The translations under genes were made by a program, and so were the position numbers. Positions 1-9,892 of a stretch of DNA of 33,889 nucleotides are shown in pieces (position 1 is the stretch's first letter; each line of letters begins with the position of its first letter). Below the pieces are notes generated by a model that saw only the letters and a program-made list of their open reading frames with translations, did no database searches and was not told the origin of the DNA. This DNA comes from Gemmata sp. Its GTDB lineage: Bacteria; Planctomycetota; Planctomycetia; Gemmatales; Gemmataceae. The DNA lies in contig JALHNS010000025.1 in NCBI GenBank assembly GCA_022843445.1, positions 1 to 33,889 on the forward strand, read 5' to 3'.

Positions 1-114
1 CGCCTGCCTCGCCGCACGGCACGCGGGGCAACGGGCGTGGTGCCAGAGATCCCACGCCAGCCACGGGACGAGGATGACGGCGTAGGCCAGCACCACCCAC
101 TCCCACCACGCCAT
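1..114 (-). CDS. Small membrane protein, cassette gene (3' end cut by window)
   Basis: Reading leftward from the ATG at 112-114, 38 codons run to the window edge without a stop. The product starts MAWWEWVVLAYAVILVPWLA, a single hydrophobic segment, followed by a CPAC motif that could bind metal. A GAGG Shine-Dalgarno-like stretch lies about 8 nt before the ATG. The start is 21 bp from the attC-like site at 136-227, the same layout as the other cassettes. The gene is incomplete here and I do not recognise a family. The open frame, ribosome site and cassette position support it as real. Confidence 0.6.
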   Translation of the reverse strand, partial: MAWWEWVVLAYAVILVPWLAWDLWHHARCPACRAARQA

Positions 115-135
115 CGCGCGCCCTCGGTTTCTGGT

Positions 136-227
136 GCCGAACGACTAAGCTCAGCAGCCCCGCCACCAGTGCGCTGAGCGTCAGAAATAACCTACGAGGC
201 GGGGTCTGCTGCAGCGCCTGGTTCGGC
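136..227 (-). repeat. attC-like site 1 (92 bp)
   Basis: The outer boxes are GCCGAAC (136-142) and GTTCGGC (221-227). Inner arms CAGCAGCCCCGCC and GGCGGGG-T-CTGCTG pair perfectly except for one extra T. Between outer and inner boxes are unpaired spacers of about 8-9 nt, as in attC unpaired central spacers. The site follows the stop codon of the 237-755 gene by 9 bp, so it is that cassette's own site. Confidence 0.78.
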
Positions 228-236
228 GTCTGGGCG

Positions 237-755
237 CTACCCGCCGGCACGCTTGGCACTCTTGAGGCGGCGGAGGTCCTTCTTCGCTGCGGCCTCGTCC
301 GCTGTTTCAGCAAACCCAATGTGCGCCACTCGCTCCCGATGGGCGACGACCCCGATGCCGTGCTCGTACTCCATCCCGTTGAACACGAACCCGGTGTACG
401 CCACCCCGTCTCCGGCAGACGAGAACACGATCACATCCGCCAACTCCAACACCCCCGCCACGGCATCCCAGTCGGCGCTCGGCAGTTCCGGGACATTGGC
501 CCGAAGGCTCGATAACACGGCCGCCGCGGTCGGTGACGCGGGGGCGAGCAGCAGACGGAACGCGGCCACTTGCTCGGCCGTAGGTGGCGGGGCGGCGGTC
601 GGCTTGGTCCGCTCAGCGGCATCTGAACAAGCCGACCGGACGAGCAGTTCGACCCCTCGGGCGGACCGAATCCAGGGGAGGACACATCGCCCGCGCCAGC
701 ACCACCCGTCCCACTTCAGGGCTGGGAACGGGTTATCATCGGTCCCCTTCGCCAC
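237..755 (-). CDS. Cassette-encoded hypothetical protein, 172 aa
   Basis: The start is GTG at 755 with GGAGGG about 9 nt upstream, and the gene begins 16 bp after the attC-like site at 772-867. The product begins MAKGTDDNPFPALKWDGW and is soluble. It has a Trp-rich N-terminus, a Pro/Ala linker (about residues 52-60), a helical middle, and a C-terminal part with EYEHGIGVVAHRERV followed by a Lys/Arg-rich tail. The pattern of an N-terminal LPW segment and a late HGIGVV-H-V segment reminds me of the DUF6985 proteins, but this is from memory and weak. No function is assigned. The GTG start and leader are nearly identical to those of the cassette gene at 2936-3424, although the proteins differ after the first few residues. 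Confidence 0.8.
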   Translation of the reverse strand: MAKGTDDNPFPALKWDGWCWRGRCVLPWIRSARGVELLVRSACSDAAERTKPTAAPPPTAEQVAAFRLLLAPASPTAAAVLSSLRANVPELPSADWDAVAGVLELADVIVFSSAGDGVAYTGFVFNGMEYEHGIGVVAHRERVAHIGFAETADEAAAKKDLRRLKSAKRAGG

Positions 756-771
756 TCGCGAGCCCTCCGTC

Positions 772-867
772 GCCGAACGACTAAGCTCAGCAGCCGGGGC
801 CGCCGAGGGGGAATGAAGTCCCAGAACCGATAAGGCGGCCCCGGTCTGCTGCAGCGCCTGGTTCGGC
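772..867 (-). repeat. attC-like site 2 (96 bp)
   Basis: The outer boxes GCCGAAC (772-778) and GTTCGGC (861-867) enclose arms CAGCAGCCGGGGCCGCC and GGCGGCCCCGG-T-CTGCTG, again with the single extra T next to CTGCTG. The stem is longer than in site 1 and the centre differs, but the two spacers are the same. The reading frame of the 787-1308 gene continues into this site and stops at 787, so most of the site is coding. Confidence 0.78.
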
Positions 868-1308
868 CTGCCTCTGCCTGGCCCCGACCTCCTGCCCGAT
901 GCGACCGGCCACCCACACGAACAGCCCGACGAACACGACCACGAACAACTCGATGCCCCACGTCTTGGAGTCCGATGGGTTCTCCGCGTAGCTCCTCAAC
1001 GGAAGCCCCAACAACAAGAGCGGGACCAGGACGGTTGGGGCCGCCCGGCGGATGCCACGCCACCCAACCAACGCACCGACCACTCCGTTCATGGCTGCGG
1101 CTGCTGCGACCCCAGCCCAATACGGGAGTGCCTCCCGGTTGCTGAGGGCGGACCAGACCGCGGAGAAGTACGAGGGTTCGTCCGTCGTATCCGACATCCG
1201 CCGGCGGTCATCCCACGTATTGGCGGCGACGAAGATGACCGGTCCGAGGATGCCGATGAGCAACCCGGCCACCAGACCGGATGTCGCGACTCGCAGCGCC
1301 CGGAGCAT
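787..1308 (-). CDS. Cassette-encoded integral membrane protein, 173 aa
   Basis: ATG at 1308 is preceded by GGAGGGG. The protein has about four hydrophobic segments: near residues 8-30 (SGLVAGLLIGILGPVIFVAA), 63-85, 91-105 and 120-138. A polar stretch between the first and second contains DDRRRMSDTTDEPS. The family is not recognised. The last 25-30 residues, rich in Arg, Ala and Gly, are translated from the attC-like site itself. That tail may be fortuitous rather than functional. Membrane location is inferred from hydrophobicity alone. Confidence 0.75.
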   Translation of the reverse strand: MLRALRVATSGLVAGLLIGILGPVIFVAANTWDDRRRMSDTTDEPSYFSAVWSALSNREALPYWAGVAAAAAMNGVVGALVGWRGIRRAAPTVLVPLLLLGLPLRSYAENPSDSKTWGIELFVVVFVGLFVWVAGRIGQEVGARQRQAEPGAAADRGRLIGSGTSFPLGGPGC

Positions 1309-1333
1309 CGCCCCTCCGATCCACCTTTCCGCG

Positions 1334-1424
1334 GCCGAACATAAAGCTCACCTGCACCGCCATCATACCGTCAGCGACGCGTCACAAACGAGCGGGCGGT
1401 GTCAGGTGCAGCGCCCGGTTCGGC
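1334..1424 (-). repeat. attC-like site 3 (91 bp), with compensatory changes
   Basis: The outer boxes GCCGAAC (1334-1340) and GTTCGGC (1418-1424) are unchanged. The inner arms read CACCTGCACCGC and GCGGTG-T-CAGGTG instead of the CAGCAG/CTGCTG pair found in the other five sites. Both arms have changed together, so pairing and the extra T are kept. This argues that the folded strand is what is selected, as for attC. Confidence 0.8.
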
Positions 1425-1772
1425 CTATTGGCGACGACCTCGAACGAACTGCGCCCGCGACTGGACTTGACCGTCCGCGCCCCAAAGCACCTCAAACCCA
1501 TGAACCATATCCCGGCTCATCTCGCGGTACAACTCGATGCGGCCGTCGTGCCGCCAAGCCACTGACACGCCCTCGGCCAGACCGTTGGCAAAGTGGGCCA
1601 CGCTCTCCAACCCACCATCCTCCCAACGGGTGTAGCACAGCCCGGTGAACGGCTCACGATCAGCCCGACAGTACTGGCCGGAGTCGGGATCGTAGATCAG
1701 CGCACGGAAGTCAACAGCGTCGGCTGGCAGACGCCTGGATACGGCCTCCCGATCCAACCACGCCTCAACCAC
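1425..1772 (-). CDS. MORN/YwqK-like repeat protein, cassette gene, 115 aa
   Basis: The start is GTG at 1772 and the stop abuts the attC-like site at 1424. After an N-terminal stretch (MVEAWLDREAVSRRLP) the protein contains short repeats of the MORN-2 type: RWEDGGLESVAHFANGLAEG, then VAWRHDGRIELYREM, then GFEVLWGADGQVQSR. These are the toxin-antitoxin YwqK-like or MORN variant repeats found in many small bacterial proteins, and they form stacked beta hairpins. No transmembrane segment or signal peptide is seen. A role as an antitoxin or immunity protein is possible given the family name and the cassette setting, but nothing in the sequence proves it. Confidence 0.8.
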   Translation of the reverse strand: MVEAWLDREAVSRRLPADAVDFRALIYDPDSGQYCRADREPFTGLCYTRWEDGGLESVAHFANGLAEGVSVAWRHDGRIELYREMSRDMVHGFEVLWGADGQVQSRAQFVRGRRQ

Positions 1773-1791
1773 CTCAGGAAGCCCTCTTGAG

Positions 1792-1888
1792 GCCGAACGA
1801 CTCAGCTCAGCAGCCGGCGGGGCTGAGGAGCCTACACGCCCCAGAAACCAATCGTGCCCCGCCGGTCTGCTGCAGCGCCTGGTTCGGC
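1792..1888 (-). repeat. attC-like site 4 (97 bp)
   Basis: The outer boxes GCCGAAC (1792-1798) and GTTCGGC (1882-1888) enclose CAGCAGCCGGCGGGGC and GCCCCGCCGG-T-CTGCTG, which pair with the same single extra T. It follows the stop of the 1900-2313 gene by 11 bp. Confidence 0.78.
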
Positions 1889-1899
1889 GTCTGAGGCGC

Positions 1900-2313
1900 T
1901 CACAGCTCCTCGGCGGCCTGGCCGTCGAACACGAACACCCCGCGGAACCCCGAAAGAACGCCCGCCACGGCTGCGACGGCTGGCCCGCCCTCGTCGCCAG
2001 CGTCGGCGCTCCGGCCCGCGAACTCGACCCGCCGACCGGGGGCGGTCATCTCCGCGGCACGCGGATGATCCCCGTACACCTCGGCGAACTCGGCCCAGTT
2101 CGGATCGCCCGGCCGGGCGTGCGACTCGTAGAGCCACACCCGCCACTCACCCCCGGCGATCTCGATGCCTTGCGGGCAGGTGCGGATGTCGCATCCGGGG
2201 AGTGCATCCCGGAGACGCTCGACGAGCACGGCCGGCGAGTAGTCGGAACCGTCCGGTACGAACGCCGTCACGCCGAGCCACTCATCCGCGACCACGCGGT
2301 CCGGGTCATCCAC
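1900..2313 (-). CDS. Cassette-encoded hypothetical protein, 137 aa
   Basis: I chose the GTG at 2313, which has GGAGGG 8 nt upstream. A nearby ATG is in another frame. The product is acidic and soluble, starting MDDPDRVVADEWLGV. It mixes short beta-like stretches (GIEIAGGEWRVWLYES) with a Pro/Asn/Trp segment (PGDPNWAEFAEVYGDHP) and an Ala/Gly-rich C-terminal third ending FDGQAAEEL. I do not recognise a family. It is placed exactly like the other cassette genes, 18 bp after one attC-like site and 11 bp before the next. Confidence 0.75.
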   Translation of the reverse strand: MDDPDRVVADEWLGVTAFVPDGSDYSPAVLVERLRDALPGCDIRTCPQGIEIAGGEWRVWLYESHARPGDPNWAEFAEVYGDHPRAAEMTAPGRRVEFAGRSADAGDEGGPAVAAVAGVLSGFRGVFVFDGQAAEEL

Positions 2314-2331
2314 CGCCGATGCCCTCCGCCC

Positions 2332-2427
2332 GCCGAACGACTCAGCTCAGCAGCGGCGGGGCACCGGTGAGCTATGGGTCGCAGAAACGAATCATGCCCC
2401 GCCGTCTGCTGCAGCGCCTGGTTCGGC
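2332..2427 (-). repeat. attC-like site 5 (96 bp)
   Basis: The outer boxes GCCGAAC (2332-2338) and GTTCGGC (2421-2427) enclose CAGCAGCGGCGGGGCA and TGCCCCGCCG-T-CTGCTG. The extra T and spacers are as in the other sites. It follows the stop of the 2436-2816 gene by 8 bp. Confidence 0.78.
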
Positions 2428-2435
2428 GTCGGGCG

Positions 2436-2816
2436 CTACCGATCCCGCCAGAGCTTGTACCCCACCAGCTCGTCCTCGGTGACGGGCTGCTCCAGAAGCA
2501 GTACCGGCTCCCAGTTGCGGAACCCGGCCTCGGACAGCGGGACGTGCCCGATGGCGACCTTCAACTCCTTCGGGTCGATGGCCGCCGGCCGCTCCTTGTA
2601 GCGGTTCGTGTGCAGCCGGGCGTGAACCCCGCCGTCCTCGACCACCAGCACCTTGACGATGCTGAAGTCGCCGTCGCCGCTCTTGCACGAGTAGATACCG
2701 CCCGGCTTGATGACCATCGCACCCTCCACCTTCGGGCTGCTCGGAGGCGGTGTTGGCGGCGCGGCCGGCTGTCCGCACCCCGCCGCGACAGCGAGTAGCA
2801 GAGGAAGGAGTCGCAT
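2436..2816 (-). CDS. Small lipoprotein, cassette gene, 126 aa
   Basis: ATG at 2816 is preceded by GGAGGGG. The N-terminus MRLLPLLLAVAAGCGQ is a lipoprotein signal: one basic residue, a short hydrophobic core and a lipobox AAGC with Cys14. A Pro/Ser-rich linker (about residues 17-28) leads to a small globular domain of about 95 residues. That domain contains KPGGIYSCKSGDGDFSIVKV and ends YKLWRDR. The mature protein is expected to be anchored to a membrane facing the periplasm. The domain is not recognised. The stop lies 8 bp from the attC-like site at 2332-2427. Confidence 0.78.
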   Translation of the reverse strand: MRLLPLLLAVAAGCGQPAAPPTPPPSSPKVEGAMVIKPGGIYSCKSGDGDFSIVKVLVVEDGGVHARLHTNRYKERPAAIDPKELKVAIGHVPLSEAGFRNWEPVLLLEQPVTEDELVGYKLWRDR

Positions 2817-2843
2817 CGGTTCGCCCCTCCGCGGACTTCCGCC

Positions 2844-2934
2844 GCCGAACGACCCAGCTCAGCAGCCCCGCCACGGGGAGATGAACCATGGGAACAACCT
2901 ATGAGGCGGGGTCTGCTGCAGCGCCTGGTTCGGC
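2844..2934 (-). repeat. attC-like site 6 (91 bp)
   Basis: The outer boxes GCCGAAC (2844-2850) and GTTCGGC (2928-2934) enclose CAGCAGCCCCGCC and GGCGGGG-T-CTGCTG. The arms are identical to those of site 1, but the spacer carries GACCCAGCT in place of GACTAAGCT and the central loop differs. It belongs to the 2936-3424 gene, whose stop lies 1 bp away. Confidence 0.78.
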
Positions 2935-2935
2935 G

Positions 2936-3424
2936 CTACCCCTCAAGGGGACCGAAGGCGTCGGCCTCCGGGTCGTACCGCGAGAGGCAGGAGTGCTCGC
3001 CGTCGTCGGCGAATCGGAACGACACCCGCAGGTCGCACGAGCACATGTCCTCGTCCGGGTCCAGGTAGCGGTACACCTCTACCCCGGCCCGCGTGGCCCG
3101 GCCGACGATCTGCTCGGTCGGGGCGATCACCGCACGGAGCTGGCCAATGAACTCGTCCCGGCGGGCGGCGAACCGCTCGCACAGCCCGAGCATCTGCTCG
3201 TCCGGGTCAAATCGGCCCTCGGCCCGGGGCAGGTCGCTGACATCCGTGCAGACCCGCAGCGACATCGGCAGCCAGCCGTTGCGGAGCGGCGGCGGGTCGG
3301 TCCACCGGATGGTCAGGGTGTCGGCGTCGGCGTCCACCATCCACGGCCCGAAGGCATCCAGTCGGTGACGGTTCGCCGCCAGGAACGAGGCCGACAGCTC
3401 TGCTTTGGCACCGCCCTTAGCCAC
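2936..3424 (-). CDS. Cassette-encoded hypothetical protein, 162 aa
   Basis: The frame is open further upstream, but I chose the GTG at 3424. It sits 16 bp inside the cassette boundary with GGAGGG about 9 nt before it, and the same leader and MAKG start occur in the 237-755 gene. The product is soluble. It contains RHRLDAFGPWMVDADADTL, a helical middle (LCERFAARRDEFIGQLRAVI) and an acidic Cys-containing stretch (DPDEDMCSCDLRVSFRF), ending FGPLEG. No family is recognised. It is the first cassette of the array in reading direction, so it would be the best expressed if a promoter lies to its right. Confidence 0.75.
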   Translation of the reverse strand: MAKGGAKAELSASFLAANRHRLDAFGPWMVDADADTLTIRWTDPPPLRNGWLPMSLRVCTDVSDLPRAEGRFDPDEQMLGLCERFAARRDEFIGQLRAVIAPTEQIVGRATRAGVEVYRYLDPDEDMCSCDLRVSFRFADDGEHSCLSRYDPEADAFGPLEG

Positions 3425-3440
3425 CCGCAAGCCCTCCGTC

Positions 3441-3473
3441 GCCGAACTTGGAATTAGCCCGCGCGCGTTCGGC
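3441..3473 (-). other. Array boundary: GCCGAAC/GTTCGGC pair 33 bp apart
   Basis: The box GCCGAAC (3441-3447) is joined to the leader of the first cassette gene exactly as in the attC-like sites. To its right there are only 19 bp (TTGGAATTAGCCCGCGCGC) before an inverted GTTCGGC at 3467-3473. There is no CAGCAG arm and no long fold. This is where the chromosomal attachment site (attI or a secondary site) would be expected. Which of these it is cannot be told from sequence alone. Confidence 0.5.
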
Positions 3474-3798
3474 ACCTGCTCATTGCGCGGCGCGCGGACC
3501 AACACGGGATAACGTACGCCAGATTACCCAGTGTTAGTTTGCGCGCCAAGTGTCAAAAGGTTGGCGGGGCGCACGCGGCGCGCGGAATAACACCGGAACG
3601 CTCCCGCCGTGATAGCCCGCGCGGCGCGCGGAATAACACAGTAACAACGGTTCCGCGCGCGGAGACACGGCCGGCCAGTTCATTGTTCTCTCATCGGGCC
3701 GGTCTACGAACTATGACCGACCGCAACGTCGGCGCACTCTTTGCGGCAGCGTGTGTTACCGCTTCTGTGCCTGTAGGCCTTTGTCCCGGCCCTTCCCG
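3474..3798. other. Gene-free spacer between array and nagB fusion gene
   Basis: About 325 bp hold no convincing gene on either strand. They contain a 19-bp direct repeat GCGGCGCGCGGAATAACAC at 3575-3593 and 3621-3639. On the minus strand there is an exact TTGACA at 3556-3551, which could be the -35 box of a promoter reading into the cassettes. I see no good -10 at 16-18 bp, only a TAACAC at 14 bp. The region is poorer in GC than its neighbours in places. No piece of an integrase was recognised. Confidence 0.5.
3575..3639 (+). repeat. Two copies of a 19-bp direct repeat
   Basis: GCGGCGCGCGGAATAACAC occurs at 3575-3593 and again at 3621-3639, 46 bp apart start to start, just outside the cassette array. 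attI sites carry accessory direct repeats bound by the integrase, so these copies are worth noting. They are longer and further apart than the known class 1 repeats. Confidence 0.6.
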
Positions 3799-5682
3799 CT
3801 ACTCGGTCCACTTCACGAACGCTTCCAGCGCGAAGTATTCCGGCAGGCCCAGCGCGTCGTAGGTGCGGGCGGTGGCGAGGTTCCGCGCCTCGGCCCGCTG
3901 CCAGAACTCGCGGCGGTCGGTGCCGCCGGGGAACATCGCGCGGTCCTTCTGGCTCTGGTGCCGGAAGATCGCTTCCTTCTTGCGCTCCAGCACGTCCGGC
4001 GACAGCGGAACGGCCATCTCGATTTCGTGCGGCTCCCACTCTTCCCAAGCGCCCTTGTACAGCCACACGTCCGGGTTCAATCCGTCGGCGCGCACGCGGC
4101 GGACGGCCGCGAACACCGCCTCGGCGCAGATGCGGTGCGTGCCGTGCGGGTCGCTCAGTTCGCCCGCCACGTACACCTGCGCCGGGTTCAGCTTCTTCAA
4201 GAGCGCGACGATGTCGTCGATGTCTTCGGGCTGGATCGGCTTCTTGGTTTTGGTGCCGGTGTGGTAGAACCGCAGGTTCATGAACTCCAACTGCTCCGCC
4301 GGGATGCCGCACACCAGCGCGCCGGCCCGGGCCTCGGTGGTGCGGATCAGCGCCTTGATCTTCAGCACCTCCGCGCTGTCCTGATCGCCGGGCTTCTTGG
4401 CGTCGAGGAACGTGCACACGCGGTCCTTGATGGTGCCCGCGGCCGAGTGCTCGTTCGGCGCGTCGAACGCCGCGAGGAACTCGTCGATGAAGTCCACGAA
4501 CCGGCGCGCGTCGTGGTCGAACACCGCGACGTTCCCGCTCGTCATGTACGCCACGTGCACCTTGTGGCCCTGCTCGAACAGGCGGATCATGGTGCCGCCC
4601 ATCGAGATCACGTCGTCGTCCGGGTGCGGCGAGAACACGAGGATCGGCTTCGCCTCTTCGGGCTTGGTCACGCGGCCCGCGGGGAACGGCGTGATGGTCG
4701 CCATGCGGTCGTGGAACACCGCCTCGCCGATGCGCTCGGCCGGCCCCTTCTCGCGCAACAGTTCGTACAGGTGGTGGAACCGGAAGTCTTCGTCGTTCAG
4801 TTGCTGAAGGCCCTTCTTCGCGCTCAGCGACAGCTTCACGACGGCCTTGCGCACCAGCTCCGGGGTCCAGTTGCACGGCCCCACTTCCCACGGCTGCCGG
4901 ATGGCGGTGAGTTCGCCGGCGGCGGCTTCGTCCAGCACCACGGTGGCGTCGCGGTGGTCTTGCAGGAAGCTCGCGCTCACGGCCTCGGTCGGCGCTTCTT
5001 CCACCGCCTTGTAGACGATGCCGGCCTTGTGCTCGCCGAACGCCATCAGGAAGATGCGGCGCGCGTCCAGAATGCTCGCGACGCCCATGGTGATCGCGTT
5101 GTGCGGCACGTTCTTTTCGCCGAAGAACCCGTCGGCCGCGTCGCGCCGGGTGATGCTGTCGAGCGTGACCAACCGCGTGCGGCTGTTCTGCGGGCTGCCC
5201 GGTTCGTTGAACGCGATGTGCCCGGTGCGGCCGATGCCCAGAATCTGAATGTCGATACCGCCCGCGGCGCGAATCCGCTCTTCGTAGTCGGCGCACCACG
5301 CGTCCACTTCGTCCGGCTTCAGGGTGCCGTCCGGGATGTGGATGTTTTCCCACTTCACGTTGATGTGGCTGAACAGCGTTTCGTGCATCCAGCGGAAGTA
5401 GGAGTGCTGGCTCTCCCGCTGCATGGGGAAGTATTCGTCGAGGTTGAAGGTGACGACGCGGGAGAAGTCCAACCCCTCGTCTTTGTGGAGGCGAATGAGT
5501 TCGCGGTACAGGCCGACGGGCGTGCTGCCGGTGGCGAGCCCGAGCACGGTGGGCTTGTTCGCGGCGTTGCGCGCCCGCACCAGCTTGTCGATCTCCTTCG
5601 CGACGTGCTTGGACGCGGCGACCGAGTTGGCGAACTTGAGGGTGCGAACGCGGGTGTGCGGGAGCGGGTGCGAGATGCTCAT
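3799..5682 (-). CDS. nagB: Glucosamine-6-phosphate deaminase fused to PIG-L (LmbE-like) deacetylase
   Basis: The 627-residue protein has two enzymes in one chain. Residues about 15-270 are NagB-like, converting glucosamine-6-phosphate to fructose-6-phosphate and ammonia. They carry the phosphate-binding ATGSTPVGLYREL, the catalytic-Asp segment FNLDEYF, and GIGRTGHIAFNEPGS with the catalytic His and Glu. The usual Asp before GHI (GxDGHI) is Thr here. Residues about 345-620 are a PIG-L/LmbE domain with the zinc motif SPHPDDDVISMGGT and a later DPHGTHR. That family removes acetyl groups from N-acetylglucosaminyl compounds. Together they suggest use of amino sugars in the cytoplasm; no signal peptide is seen. 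Fusions of this layout are known in several bacterial phyla, so this is family knowledge rather than novelty. ATG at 5682 was chosen as the first start before the conserved region. Confidence 0.9.
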   Translation of the reverse strand: MSISHPLPHTRVRTLKFANSVAASKHVAKEIDKLVRARNAANKPTVLGLATGSTPVGLYRELIRLHKDEGLDFSRVVTFNLDEYFPMQRESQHSYFRWMHETLFSHINVKWENIHIPDGTLKPDEVDAWCADYEERIRAAGGIDIQILGIGRTGHIAFNEPGSPQNSRTRLVTLDSITRRDAADGFFGEKNVPHNAITMGVASILDARRIFLMAFGEHKAGIVYKAVEEAPTEAVSASFLQDHRDATVVLDEAAAGELTAIRQPWEVGPCNWTPELVRKAVVKLSLSAKKGLQQLNDEDFRFHHLYELLREKGPAERIGEAVFHDRMATITPFPAGRVTKPEEAKPILVFSPHPDDDVISMGGTMIRLFEQGHKVHVAYMTSGNVAVFDHDARRFVDFIDEFLAAFDAPNEHSAAGTIKDRVCTFLDAKKPGDQDSAEVLKIKALIRTTEARAGALVCGIPAEQLEFMNLRFYHTGTKTKKPIQPEDIDDIVALLKKLNPAQVYVAGELSDPHGTHRICAEAVFAAVRRVRADGLNPDVWLYKGAWEEWEPHEIEMAVPLSPDVLERKKEAIFRHQSQKDRAMFPGGTDRREFWQRAEARNLATARTYDALGLPEYFALEAFVKWTE

Positions 5683-6606: not shown

Positions 6607-8739
6607 TCAGCGCCCGCGGCGCTTGGAGCGCATCGGCTTCGGCACTTCCGGGGCCGCGGGCGGGGCGGGCGGCGGTTCGCTGCTCTGCTCCAAGAACCGG
6701 TACTGGCTGCGCACCAGCGGCGCGCCCTCCGGCGGCTTCACCCGCGAGTAGGTGCCGTCCGCGTGCAGCTCGCGGGCCTTCACGTTGTCCGCCAGCGTCG
6801 TCTTCAGCAGGTCGATCACCCGCTGCTTCAGGTCCGGCTGCTCCACCGGGAACACCACCTCCACGCGGCGGCTCAGGTTGCGGTCCATCAGGTCGGCGCT
6901 GCCCACGTACACCTCGCTCGCGCCGCCGTTCTCGAAGTAGAAGATGCGACTGTGTTCCAAGAACCGGTCCACGACGGAGACGACGCGAACGGTTTCGCTC
7001 ACGTCGGGCACGCCGGGGCGCAGCGAGCAGATGCCGCGGCACGCCACGTCGATCTTCACCCCGGCTTGGCTCGCGCGGTACAGCGCCTTCACCACCGCCG
7101 GCTCCAGCAGGCCGTTCACCTTGAACAGCAGCCGCGCCGGCCGCCCGGCCTTCTGGTGCGCGGCCTCGCGGTCGATCTTCTCGATGATCTGGCTCTGCAA
7201 CCGCGACGGCGCGACGAGCAACTTGCGCATGGGCGGCAGCGCGGTGCTGGCGGTCAGGTGGTTGAACAGGAGCGTCACGTCTTCGGCCAGATCGACGTTG
7301 CAGGTGAACAAGCCGAGATCGGTGTACACGCGCGCGGTCTGCGGGTTGTAGTTGCCGGTGGCGAGGTGCACGTAGCGGCGGAACGAGCCGTCCTCCTCGC
7401 GCCGCACCACCAGCGCCACCTTGCAGTGCGTCTTCAGCCCCACGAACCCGAAGACGACGTGAACGCCGGCCTTTTCCAGCTCGCGGGCCCAGAGGATGTT
7501 CCGCTCTTCGTCCATGCGGGCCTTCAGTTCCACGACGGCCGTCACCTGCTTGCCGCGGTCGGCGGCGCGCTGGAGCGCCCGCACGATGGGCGAATCGCTG
7601 CTGGTGCGGTACAGCGTCTGCTTGATGGCGAGCACGCGGTCGTCGGAGGCCGCGGCCTCGATGAAATCGACCACCGGGGCGAACGACTCGAACGGGTGGA
7701 ACACGAGCACGTCGCGCCCGCGGATCGCGGGCCACGGGGCGGCGGCCTGCGCGAACGCGGGCACCGCGGCCGGGGTGAACGGCGGGTCGCGCAGGTCGGC
7801 GAACCCGGGCACGCCGAGCAGTTGGAACAGGCCGGTGAGGTCCAGCGGGCCGGGGATCGCGTACACGTCGGCCGGGTTCAGCTTCAGCCCCTCGGTGAGG
7901 AACTGCGGCACGTCGGGCGGCGCGCCGGCGTCGATCTCGAGCCGCACCGGGTGCCCGCGGCGCCGCGCGCGCACGTGCGCCTCGATCTCTTCCAGCAGGT
8001 CGTCCACCTCGTCGTCCAGCTCGTACTCGCTGTCGCGGGTGACGCGGAACGCCGCGGCGCTCACCACCTCCAAGCCGGGGAACAGTTCGGTCAGGTGCAA
8101 CCGAATGGCGTCTTCGAGCGCGAAGAACGCGTGCCCCGGCGCGCCCTCGGCGGCGGGCAGCGCGAGGAACCGCGGCAGCACGCCGGGCACCTGCACCACC
8201 GCGTACAGCGGGTCCGCGTCGTTCGGGCGGCGCAGCGTGACCGCGAGGTTCAGCGACTTGTTCAGCAGGTGCGGGAACGGGTGCGCCGGGTCGGTCGAAA
8301 GGGGCGTGAGTACCGGGAAGATCTCGCGCCGGAACGCGGCCCGCACGTGCGCGAGTTCGGGTTCGCGCAGTTCGCCGCTGGTGCGAATGACGATGCCGCG
8401 GGCCGCGAGTGCCGGGAGGATCTCCGCGCTCAGCACCTTGTACTGGTCGGCGACCAGTTCGCGCGTGGTGCGGCGCAGGTGCTCCAGTTGCACCCGCGGG
8501 GGCATCTGATCGGCCCCGGAGCCGATCGGAATGTTCGCCTGCACCTTCTGCTGCACGCCGCCCACGCGCACCATGAAGAACTCGTCCAAGTTCGAGCTGA
8601 AGATGGCGACGAACTTGAGCCGCTCCAGCATGGGAACGGACGGGTCTTGGGCCTCTTCGAGGACGCGCTTGTTGAACGCGAGCCAACTGAGGTCGCGGTT
8701 GATGTACAGGGCGGGGTCGTCGAGGTTCGCCGGGTTCAC
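6607..8739 (-). CDS. ppk1: Polyphosphate kinase 1
   Basis: The 710-residue enzyme reversibly makes polyphosphate from ATP; Ppk1 proteins are usually about 690-720 residues. The N-terminal domain starts LYINRDLSWLAFNKRVLEEA and continues SSNLDEFFMVRVGG. The catalytic C-terminal part has KQTLYRTSSDSPIV, then HLATGNYNPQTARVYTDLGL with the phospho-accepting His458 (usually HLGTGNYN), then FLEHSRIFYF with the second conserved His. The frame stays open far upstream, but the GTG at 8739 lies just before the conserved N-terminus and has GGAG about 9 nt upstream. The C-terminus is a Pro-rich, then basic tail (PPPAPPAAPEVPKP...RRGR). It is transcribed divergently from the phosphatase-like gene at 8861. 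Confidence 0.93.
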   Translation of the reverse strand: MNPANLDDPALYINRDLSWLAFNKRVLEEAQDPSVPMLERLKFVAIFSSNLDEFFMVRVGGVQQKVQANIPIGSGADQMPPRVQLEHLRRTTRELVADQYKVLSAEILPALAARGIVIRTSGELREPELAHVRAAFRREIFPVLTPLSTDPAHPFPHLLNKSLNLAVTLRRPNDADPLYAVVQVPGVLPRFLALPAAEGAPGHAFFALEDAIRLHLTELFPGLEVVSAAAFRVTRDSEYELDDEVDDLLEEIEAHVRARRRGHPVRLEIDAGAPPDVPQFLTEGLKLNPADVYAIPGPLDLTGLFQLLGVPGFADLRDPPFTPAAVPAFAQAAAPWPAIRGRDVLVFHPFESFAPVVDFIEAAASDDRVLAIKQTLYRTSSDSPIVRALQRAADRGKQVTAVVELKARMDEERNILWARELEKAGVHVVFGFVGLKTHCKVALVVRREEDGSFRRYVHLATGNYNPQTARVYTDLGLFTCNVDLAEDVTLLFNHLTASTALPPMRKLLVAPSRLQSQIIEKIDREAAHQKAGRPARLLFKVNGLLEPAVVKALYRASQAGVKIDVACRGICSLRPGVPDVSETVRVVSVVDRFLEHSRIFYFENGGASEVYVGSADLMDRNLSRRVEVVFPVEQPDLKQRVIDLLKTTLADNVKARELHADGTYSRVKPPEGAPLVRSQYRFLEQSSEPPPAPPAAPEVPKPMRSKRRGR

Positions 8740-8775
8740 GGGGCGCGCTCCGAACAGTGCGGCAGCAAAACGGAC

Positions 8776-8804
8776 AGTATACCCGGCGGGCCGCGTCGGC
8801 GCAA
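8776..8804 (-). promoter_or_regulatory. Candidate promoter of ppk1
   Basis: On the minus strand TTGCGC (8804-8799) and TATACT (8781-8776) are separated by 17 bp. Transcription would start near 8769, about 30 nt before the GTG of ppk1. The -10 box matches five of six consensus bases and stands out in GC-rich DNA. Confidence 0.45.
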
Positions 8805-8860
8805 CTGCGCGCCAACTTGCCCTTCCCCTGTTGCGCGTCTTGTGGCATTCTCCGCCGCGC

Positions 8861-9892
8861 ATGGACGCACCCCAACCCACACCGCCCGCGCAGCCGGGCG
8901 CGCCACGCCGGTTCACGCGCCGCGGGCTGCTGAAACTCACCGCCGGTGCCGCCGGAGCGGCGCTCGCGGCCGAGTTCGCGCGCGTCGTGTTCCTCTCGAA
9001 CGAGCACACCGTGATTCCCGGGCGCGTGTACCGCACCGCGCAACTGAAGCCGGAGCGACTGTCGCAGTTCATCGCCGACAAGGGGATTCGCACCGTCGTG
9101 AACCTGCGCGGCGTGTGCGCGAACATGCCGTGGTACATCGACGAGTGCCGCGCCACGCACGCCGCGAACGCGAACCAAGAAGACATCACCCTCTCCGCGA
9201 AGCGCCTGCCGGCACCAGCGGAAGTGCGGCGGCTCGTGGAAGTGCTCGACCGCACCGACTACCCGATCGTGTTCCACTGCGCGCGCGGGGCCGACCGCAC
9301 CGGCCTTGCGGCCACCGCGGCGCGCCTGCTGCTCACCGACGATTCGCTCTCCCGCGCGCGCCGCCAACTGTGGCCGCGGTACGGGCACGTCGCGGTCGGG
9401 CGCACGTACGCCATCGACAAGTTTTTCGATTACTACGAAGCGTGGCTGAGCGCGCGAAACGAAGAGCACGCGCCGAACCGCTTCCGGCAGTGGGTGAACG
9501 CCGACTACTGCCCCGGCGCGTACCGGGCGAAACTCGAACTCGTTGGGCCGTCGCACTTCGCGGCCGGGCGCGGGTTCGCGGTGGACGTGCGCGCGACGAA
9601 CACGAGTATCGAGCCGTGGGACTTCACGCCGGGCGCGGCCGGCGGGTTCCGCATGCGGTACACGCTCAGCACCCCGTCGGGCCTGAACATCCGCCGCGCG
9701 TTCTGCGGGCAGTTCGCGCGCATCGTGAAGCCGGGCGAATCGGTGACGCTCGCGTGCGGGTTCCCGCCGCTCGCACCGGGAACGTACCTGCTGAACGCGG
9801 ACCTGCTCGAAGCCCAACCGATCGAACTGCTGAACACCGAGTTCGTGCAGTACGGCTCCGAGCCGCTGCTCGCGGGGCTTGAGGTGGGGTGA
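8861..9892 (+). CDS. Tat-exported dual-specificity/tyrosine phosphatase-like protein
   Basis: The 343-residue protein begins with a twin-arginine signal (RRFTRRGLLKLTAGAAGAAL, about residues 14-33), so it is likely exported folded. Residues about 50-185 are a cysteine-phosphatase domain: IRTVVNLRG, then the active-site loop HCARGADRTG with the CX5R pattern, followed by the helix LAATAARLLL. Many bacterial members of this family act on phosphotyrosine, phosphoinositides or other phosphates. The C-terminal 110 residues look like a separate beta-sandwich (FAVDVRATNTSIEPWDF, then GTYLLNADLLEAQPIELLNT), which may bind a partner or surface. ATG at 8861 is the only start that keeps the Tat signal intact. 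The substrate is unknown. Confidence 0.82.
   Translation: MDAPQPTPPAQPGAPRRFTRRGLLKLTAGAAGAALAAEFARVVFLSNEHTVIPGRVYRTAQLKPERLSQFIADKGIRTVVNLRGVCANMPWYIDECRATHAANANQEDITLSAKRLPAPAEVRRLVEVLDRTDYPIVFHCARGADRTGLAATAARLLLTDDSLSRARRQLWPRYGHVAVGRTYAIDKFFDYYEAWLSARNEEHAPNRFRQWVNADYCPGAYRAKLELVGPSHFAAGRGFAVDVRATNTSIEPWDFTPGAAGGFRMRYTLSTPSGLNIRRAFCGQFARIVKPGESVTLACGFPPLAPGTYLLNADLLEAQPIELLNTEFVQYGSEPLLAGLEVG

Follow-up and report, generated by a model that had tools for sequence, protein, structure and literature searches.

Integrons are usually described as one integrase gene (intI), one attachment site (attI) and one array of gene cassettes, and clusters away from intI are regarded as orphans. Here we analysed a window of 33,889 nucleotides, contig C25 of a 7.39-Mb draft genome of Gemmata sp. 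in 636 contigs, and found that it carries a real integron array, in which six attC sites separate seven minus-strand cassettes at positions 1-3440. We put at about 85% the probability that this is a chromosomal integron array with an attI-like head of its own, operated in trans by the only IntI integrase of the genome, which another contig, C583, encodes. We favour service in trans because C583 encodes an IntI and because a repeat in the array head occurs only here and downstream of intI. The window array would then be one unit of a dispersed integron, with one integrase common to several attI-headed arrays located in different parts of the chromosome.

The six attC sites (Table 1) fold as DNA in the same manner. 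Each begins with a 7-bp R''/R' outer stem (GCCGAAC/GTTCGGC) and an unpaired spacer of 5-6 nt, followed by an L''/L' stem of 3 + 6 bp and a variable inner stem. Two constant bases on one arm are extrahelical, C and T on the plus strand. The T, which the original prediction had described as the one constant unpaired base, is indeed extrahelical, but the C (G on the gene strand) is a second such base. Fold z-scores ranged from -3.5 to -5.8 on the plus (bottom) strand and from -2.7 to -5.3 on the minus strand. When 13 attC of this genome were aligned, one inner-stem pair changed from CG to GC in 6 of the 13 sequences, two more pairs carried two-sided changes and 95% of cells were paired; the covariation score exceeded all 500 shuffles and far exceeded slid versions of the alignment.

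Since one covariance model (R1) was built partly from the window attC, the window sites were tested with a second model (R2) built solely from 150 attC of another species. Results showed all six sites on the minus strand of the 33.9-kb window (E 9e-9 to 3e-22) with no other match on that strand, together with one weak opposite-strand match on attC 4. A rule-based, model-free structural search, with GTT/AAC and complementarity as its sole assumptions, returned six sites in 1-3473, none in 3474-33889 (30.4 kb) and none in 100 dinucleotide shuffles. Both searches confirm the six foldable sites of 91-97 bp from which the original prediction started, and R2 is the covariance-model check that it had proposed. 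An Rfam scan of the window gave no match. The plain pattern GCCGAAC-N-GTTCGGC proved useless as a diagnostic, occurring at 54 places in this GC-rich genome; structure models were used because the pattern is that common.

The R' core reads GTTCGGC at all six sites, which also carry the invariant GTT/AAC triplets. As had been noticed from the letters of the window, this core departs from the seven-base consensus GTTRRRY at one base, position 4 being C in every site. We treat GTTRRRY as a descriptive consensus that is not required for integron membership; in a small comparison set from other phyla, position 4 was A in 12 cases, G in 2 and C in 1.

No integrase was found on the window contig, in agreement with the original prediction, and with six attC and no intI the contig carries what is called a CALIN (cluster of attC sites lacking integron-integrases, defined as two or more attC with no intI next to them). 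A search of the rest of the genome identified one full-length IntI on contig C583 (3.3 kb), scoring 449.7 bits against TIGR02249 (cut-off 265). It is the sole protein of the genome above the cut-off, the other matches lying below it in the range seen in control genomes. The catalytic residues of a tyrosine recombinase are present (R167, K192, H298, R301, H324 and Y333). Its matches include planctomycete-named relatives, and the nearest IntI proteins outside planctomycetes are mostly proteobacterial (60-66% identity). Because this recombinase belongs to the ordinary IntI family, the suggestion that the cassettes have a variant recombinase of their own becomes unnecessary, and the other option of the original prediction, a CALIN served by an integrase elsewhere, gains from the combination of matching attC models and one intact IntI. 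On C583, intI lies downstream of an HtrA-like protease gene. We compared this genome with 18 relatives of the genus (19 genomes in all); their intI genes are flanked neither by the window's flanking genes nor by HtrA, so the position of intI is not conserved. Additional attC, which the original prediction had asked to look for, occur on contigs C521, C182, C265, C52, C224 and C502. On contig C521 (region 1130-4201), the last attC of the array has a damaged R'' core; beyond it come a long open reading frame (ORF) similar by eye to a tyrosine recombinase and another resembling a DNA cytosine methyltransferase.

The original prediction, which had found no integrase at the expected end, missed what does stand there, an attI-like module at the head of the array. 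The module carries the repeats GTGTTATTCCGCGCGC (3624-3639 and 3578-3593) and GTGTTGGTCCGCGCGC (3490-3505), and after a terminal inverted repeat it ends in CTAATTCCAA-GTTCGGC at 3441-3457, where crossover is predicted at G|TTCGGC (3447/3446). With one mismatch allowed, the repeat GTGTTAKTCCGCGCGC has five copies in the whole genome, three of them in the window (3490-3639) and the other two on C583, no more than 100 bp 3' of intI; the first two copies are 46 bp apart at both loci, and the window head is 77.5% identical to the 3' flank of the C583 intI over 80 bp. In the relatives attI lies 3' of an intI that is co-oriented with the cassettes. Just 3' of intI these genomes have at least one GTG(T/A)TA..., a terminal inverted repeat, CTAA, about six bases, GTTCGGC and then the first cassette, and the same anatomy is found at 3441-3505 of the window. 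Judged by homology and anatomy, a putative attI heads the window array. Because this head is homologous to the site beside intI, the array is more than an orphan attC cluster. The same data bear on a possible origin of the array in which cassettes were inserted off target, at a chromosomal site used by chance (attG) instead of an attI. CALINs have been proposed to arise in this way (PMC8618304), and Xanthomonas is known to carry dispersed ones (PMC12444791); yet the head repeat and its 46-bp spacing are common to the intI 3' flank and occur nowhere else in the genome, and the window head has the anatomy of the relatives' attI, which makes a chance site very improbable here.

Three further sites resemble parts of this module. 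The site 3' of intI on C583 ends in ...CTCACATGG-GAACTG, with no GTTCGGC or cassette, and we infer that it is an empty or damaged attI. Between the repeats of the window head, at 3520-3560 on the minus strand, stands GGCGCGCAAACTAACACTGGG, whose sequence resembles the right arm of another attI, placed in tandem and unfilled. On contig C265 (1203-1237) a cassette terminus, CCGAATTCCCAGTTCGGC, resembles the right half of the window attI and not an attC; this is possibly an attI-ended cassette.

Evidence for movement of cassettes between arrays comes from the complete genome of a congener (G002, 8,999,201 bp), in which five arrays were analysed, with 353 attC at E<=1e-4 between them. The R' core was GTTCGGC in 329 of 334 attC. 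The 329 cassettes of the five arrays, cut at G|TT, fell into 247 families at 99% identity, and 34 families (97 cassettes) were present in at least two arrays, which lie megabases apart. There were 99 cross-array pairs at >=99% identity, 90 of them without an identical neighbour. The cassettes flanking shared ones were unrelated, with a median ungapped flank identity of 0.30. Beyond the crossover the commonest exact-match run was 1-2 bases on the left and 6 on the right, the latter being the TTCGGC common to all cassettes. Identity that ends at G|TTCGGC is the trace expected of IntI recombination there, and it marks the variant core as the crossover in use; the sequence comparison points to exchange in trans at the GTTCGGC core in G002. 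Homologous recombination among similar attC, or gene conversion, could instead account for the sharing: the attC of G002 are closely alike, most having an 80-96% match to one attC of the window, and for some shared cassettes the identity on the left side continues 13-44 nt into the adjoining attC. However, the positions at which identity most often ends and the dissimilar flanking cassettes argue against it, and we consider this explanation improbable for the sharing as a whole.

Two further observations concern G002. The sites closest to attC 4 of the window are attC of G002 (up to 96%), and attC 4 scored 103.7 bits with the G002-built model as compared with 47-77 for the other five window attC, which suggests that its cassette came from the G002 lineage. 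A repetitive body (GTGTGGTCCGCG...), present in several registers and with no gene apparent in it, is common to many G002 cassettes; it was seen at 8300-9300 of locus L112 and at the heads of other G002 arrays.

In our own genome, one cassette start is found in two contexts. A near-identical copy of the start of cassette 7 opens contig C521 behind a different attC; the first 119 bases from the contig edge are identical, and a 2-nt indel and one substitution follow before the core. Window position 1 is itself the contig edge, a point that the original prediction had also overlooked, and both contigs break there because this start is repeated. In the 18 congeners, searched at E<=1e-20, the matches listed covered attC and a few flanking bases only, with no window cassette body. 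The original prediction had named as grounds for its own rejection a lack of attC model hits, a lack of intI in related genomes and one gene order fixed in all relatives. None of the three was observed: attC models match, IntI was found in 13 of the 18 relatives, and no window cassette body appeared among the congener matches listed. Its interpretation as a whole is partly supported, the integron reading and the guess of a CALIN served from elsewhere being borne out.

These observations also weigh on whether the window array is a relic CALIN, left behind when a local intI was deleted and no longer served. There is no intI near the array, and in two relatives an attI copy is preceded by a C-terminal remnant of IntI, in G002 at 7.852 Mb (35 aa, E 0.008; attI at L264 3925-3941) and in G014 on contig C128 (62 aa, E 5e-21; attI at L273 4044-4060). 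Because such remnants adjoin some attI, intI loss next to attI does occur, and by the same sequence evidence some attI-only heads may derive from decayed intI-attI copies. Against a relic, our genome has an intact IntI, attC structure and core are kept in 6/6 window sites, the cassette repeated behind a different attC and the lack of congener sharing point to turnover, and the intI-less arrays of G002 contain cassettes 100% identical to those of its intI array. We therefore regard a relic as unlikely, though less so than either of the two preceding alternatives.

Across the genus, attC matches were found in 19/19 genomes and IntI matches at E<=1e-30 in 13/18 relatives, some of them partial. 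The attI counts rest on a strict pattern search with manual inspection. A near-identical attI opens each of the five G002 arrays, while intI, of which G002 has one intact copy, stands at only one; at the four other heads, homology to the intI locus starts directly after the intI stop codon. G002 has about 11 full attI copies, and further copies were counted in G016 (three), G013 (two or three), G010 and G005 (two each). G014 has several attI and a broken intI, and G007 one attI and no IntI match. There are attI-headed arrays or sites without intI in G016, G013, G010 and G005, and also in intI-less G007; the array heads of intI-less G012 had no attI by the rule used. A 17-mer of G002 at 5.1476 Mb, CTAATTCCAAGTTCGGC, was considered as an attI and discarded as a chance match, since it lacks the hairpin. 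In G013, near-palindromic attC-like sites (L111 4460-4551, 6958-7049 and 8314-8405) match the model on both strands and might lose the usual strand preference.

One of the full attI copies of G002 lies between cassettes of array E (L257 11672-11689; 7.6017 Mb), and its upstream homology to other attI copies extends about 455 bp. A doubtful but conceivable extension is that attI is a multiplying module, the integron spreading copies of its own attI and building a chromosome-wide network of arrays under one integrase. Spread might occur through IntI acting on attI-ended units, the attI inside array E being a hint. The comparison did not reveal a precise mobile unit, because homology upstream of attI varies between copies from <100 to about 3500 bp and the module has no fixed length.

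In the proposed mechanism of the attI-headed array served in trans, IntI would bind attC in the form of its folded bottom strand; cassettes would be excised and then inserted again at an attI or attC in any of the arrays, and the strands would be exchanged at G|TTCGGC. Use of the bottom strand and its folding are taken by analogy from known integrons; the C583 IntI is presumably active and the attI-like site presumably used. Several points weigh against this reading. The genome is a draft, the array is linked to C583 through the shared repeat only, and C583 may have been binned wrongly. Its attI-like site has neither a cassette nor GTTCGGC beside it within the contig, and attI function is deduced solely from position and homology. 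Recent exchange is seen in G002, whereas our genome offers just two copies of one cassette start, and homologous recombination between attC could account for some of the sharing between arrays.

The genes of the array, predicted as seven small ones on one strand, proved to be six complete genes and one cut by the contig edge, all on the minus strand, in cassettes of 458-636 bp. The window cassette proteins had no Pfam gathering-level, NCBIfam or PADLOC match.

Table 1. Positions of the integron array and its outer neighbour in the window.
Feature	Coordinates	Strand	Details
Flanking chromosomal gene	3799..5682	-	Glucosamine_iso and PIG-L domains; not intI; outer edge of array
attI-like module	3441..3660	-	Head of array; repeats, terminal inverted repeat, then CTAATTCCAA-GTTCGGC
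Cassette 1 ORF	2936..3424	-	162 aa; GTG start; no family
attC 1	2844..2934	-	91 bp; R1 92.8 bits; R2 E 6e-16; fold
Cassette 2 ORF	2436..2816	-	126 aa; N-terminus resembles lipoprotein signal (by eye)
attC 2	2332..2427	-	96 bp; R1 78.2 bits; R2 E 4e-10
Cassette 3 ORF	1900..2313	-	137 aa; no family
attC 3	1792..1888	-	97 bp; R1 77.2 bits; R2 E 9e-9
Cassette 4 ORF	1425..1772	-	115 aa; no family
attC 4	1334..1424	-	91 bp; R2 103.7 bits, E 3e-22
Cassette 5 ORF	787..1308	-	173 aa; probable membrane protein (by eye); extends into own attC
attC 5	772..867	-	96 bp; R1 83.6 bits; R2 E 2e-10
Cassette 6 ORF	237..755	-	172 aa; DUF6985 match below threshold (E 0.015)
attC 6	136..227	-	92 bp; R1 96 bits; R2 E 3e-15
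Cassette 7 start	1..135	-	Truncated by contig edge

Integrons and attC are already known in Planctomycetes (PMC8352920, PMC8618304, PMC2426708). Like sedentary chromosomal integrons, or superintegrons, such as that of Vibrio cholerae (PMC8618304), the Gemmata system has an IntI-family integrase, structured attC, a G|TT crossover, long arrays of small, mostly unknown genes and, judging from G002, movement of single cassettes. In contrast to them, it has arrays at several chromosomal loci, each with an attI-like head, under one intI, its core is GTTCGGC and not GTTRRRY, and intI is co-oriented with the cassettes with attI 3' of it. It shares with CALIN elements attC clusters that lack an adjacent intI and may be mobilised in trans, which is an accepted idea (PMC9668308, PMC12444791), but many Gemmata clusters retain an attI-like site at the 5' end, and the genome still has an intact intI; the origins proposed for CALINs include intI loss and rearrangement besides off-target insertion (PMC8618304). 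Transcription of intI in the cassette direction is known from the reverse-oriented integrons of Spirochaetes (PMC9668308), a different phylum, whereas Gemmata has multiple attI per genome. Delta-attI-type gene cassettes likewise place attI away from intI and within arrays, but these are single cassettes of mobile integrons (PMC12901181), while in Gemmata attI head whole chromosomal arrays. Ghaly et al. modelled attC of the same phylum and already recognised taxon-specific attC; no mention of a GTTCGGC core or of several attI was found in that text (PMC8352920). In the open-access literature searched, which is part of the literature only, neither multiple attI-headed arrays governed by a single intI nor the GTTCGGC core turned up, and the same holds for the combination of many attI per single intI with this core.

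All in all, sequence comparison indicates that attI-headed arrays sharing one intI are a trait of the genus: in several members, arrays away from intI keep landing sites of their own. In G002, a single genome with >350 attC, intact cassettes were recently exchanged among five attI-headed arrays megabases apart, so that one IntI apparently serves many separate arrays and has moved identical cassettes between them. Annotation by attC and intI alone would call most such arrays CALIN and overlook their attI. The GTTCGGC core offers a natural core-site variant for the study of IntI/attC co-evolution, and the question whether CALINs act in trans becomes directly testable in environmental bacteria with cultured members.

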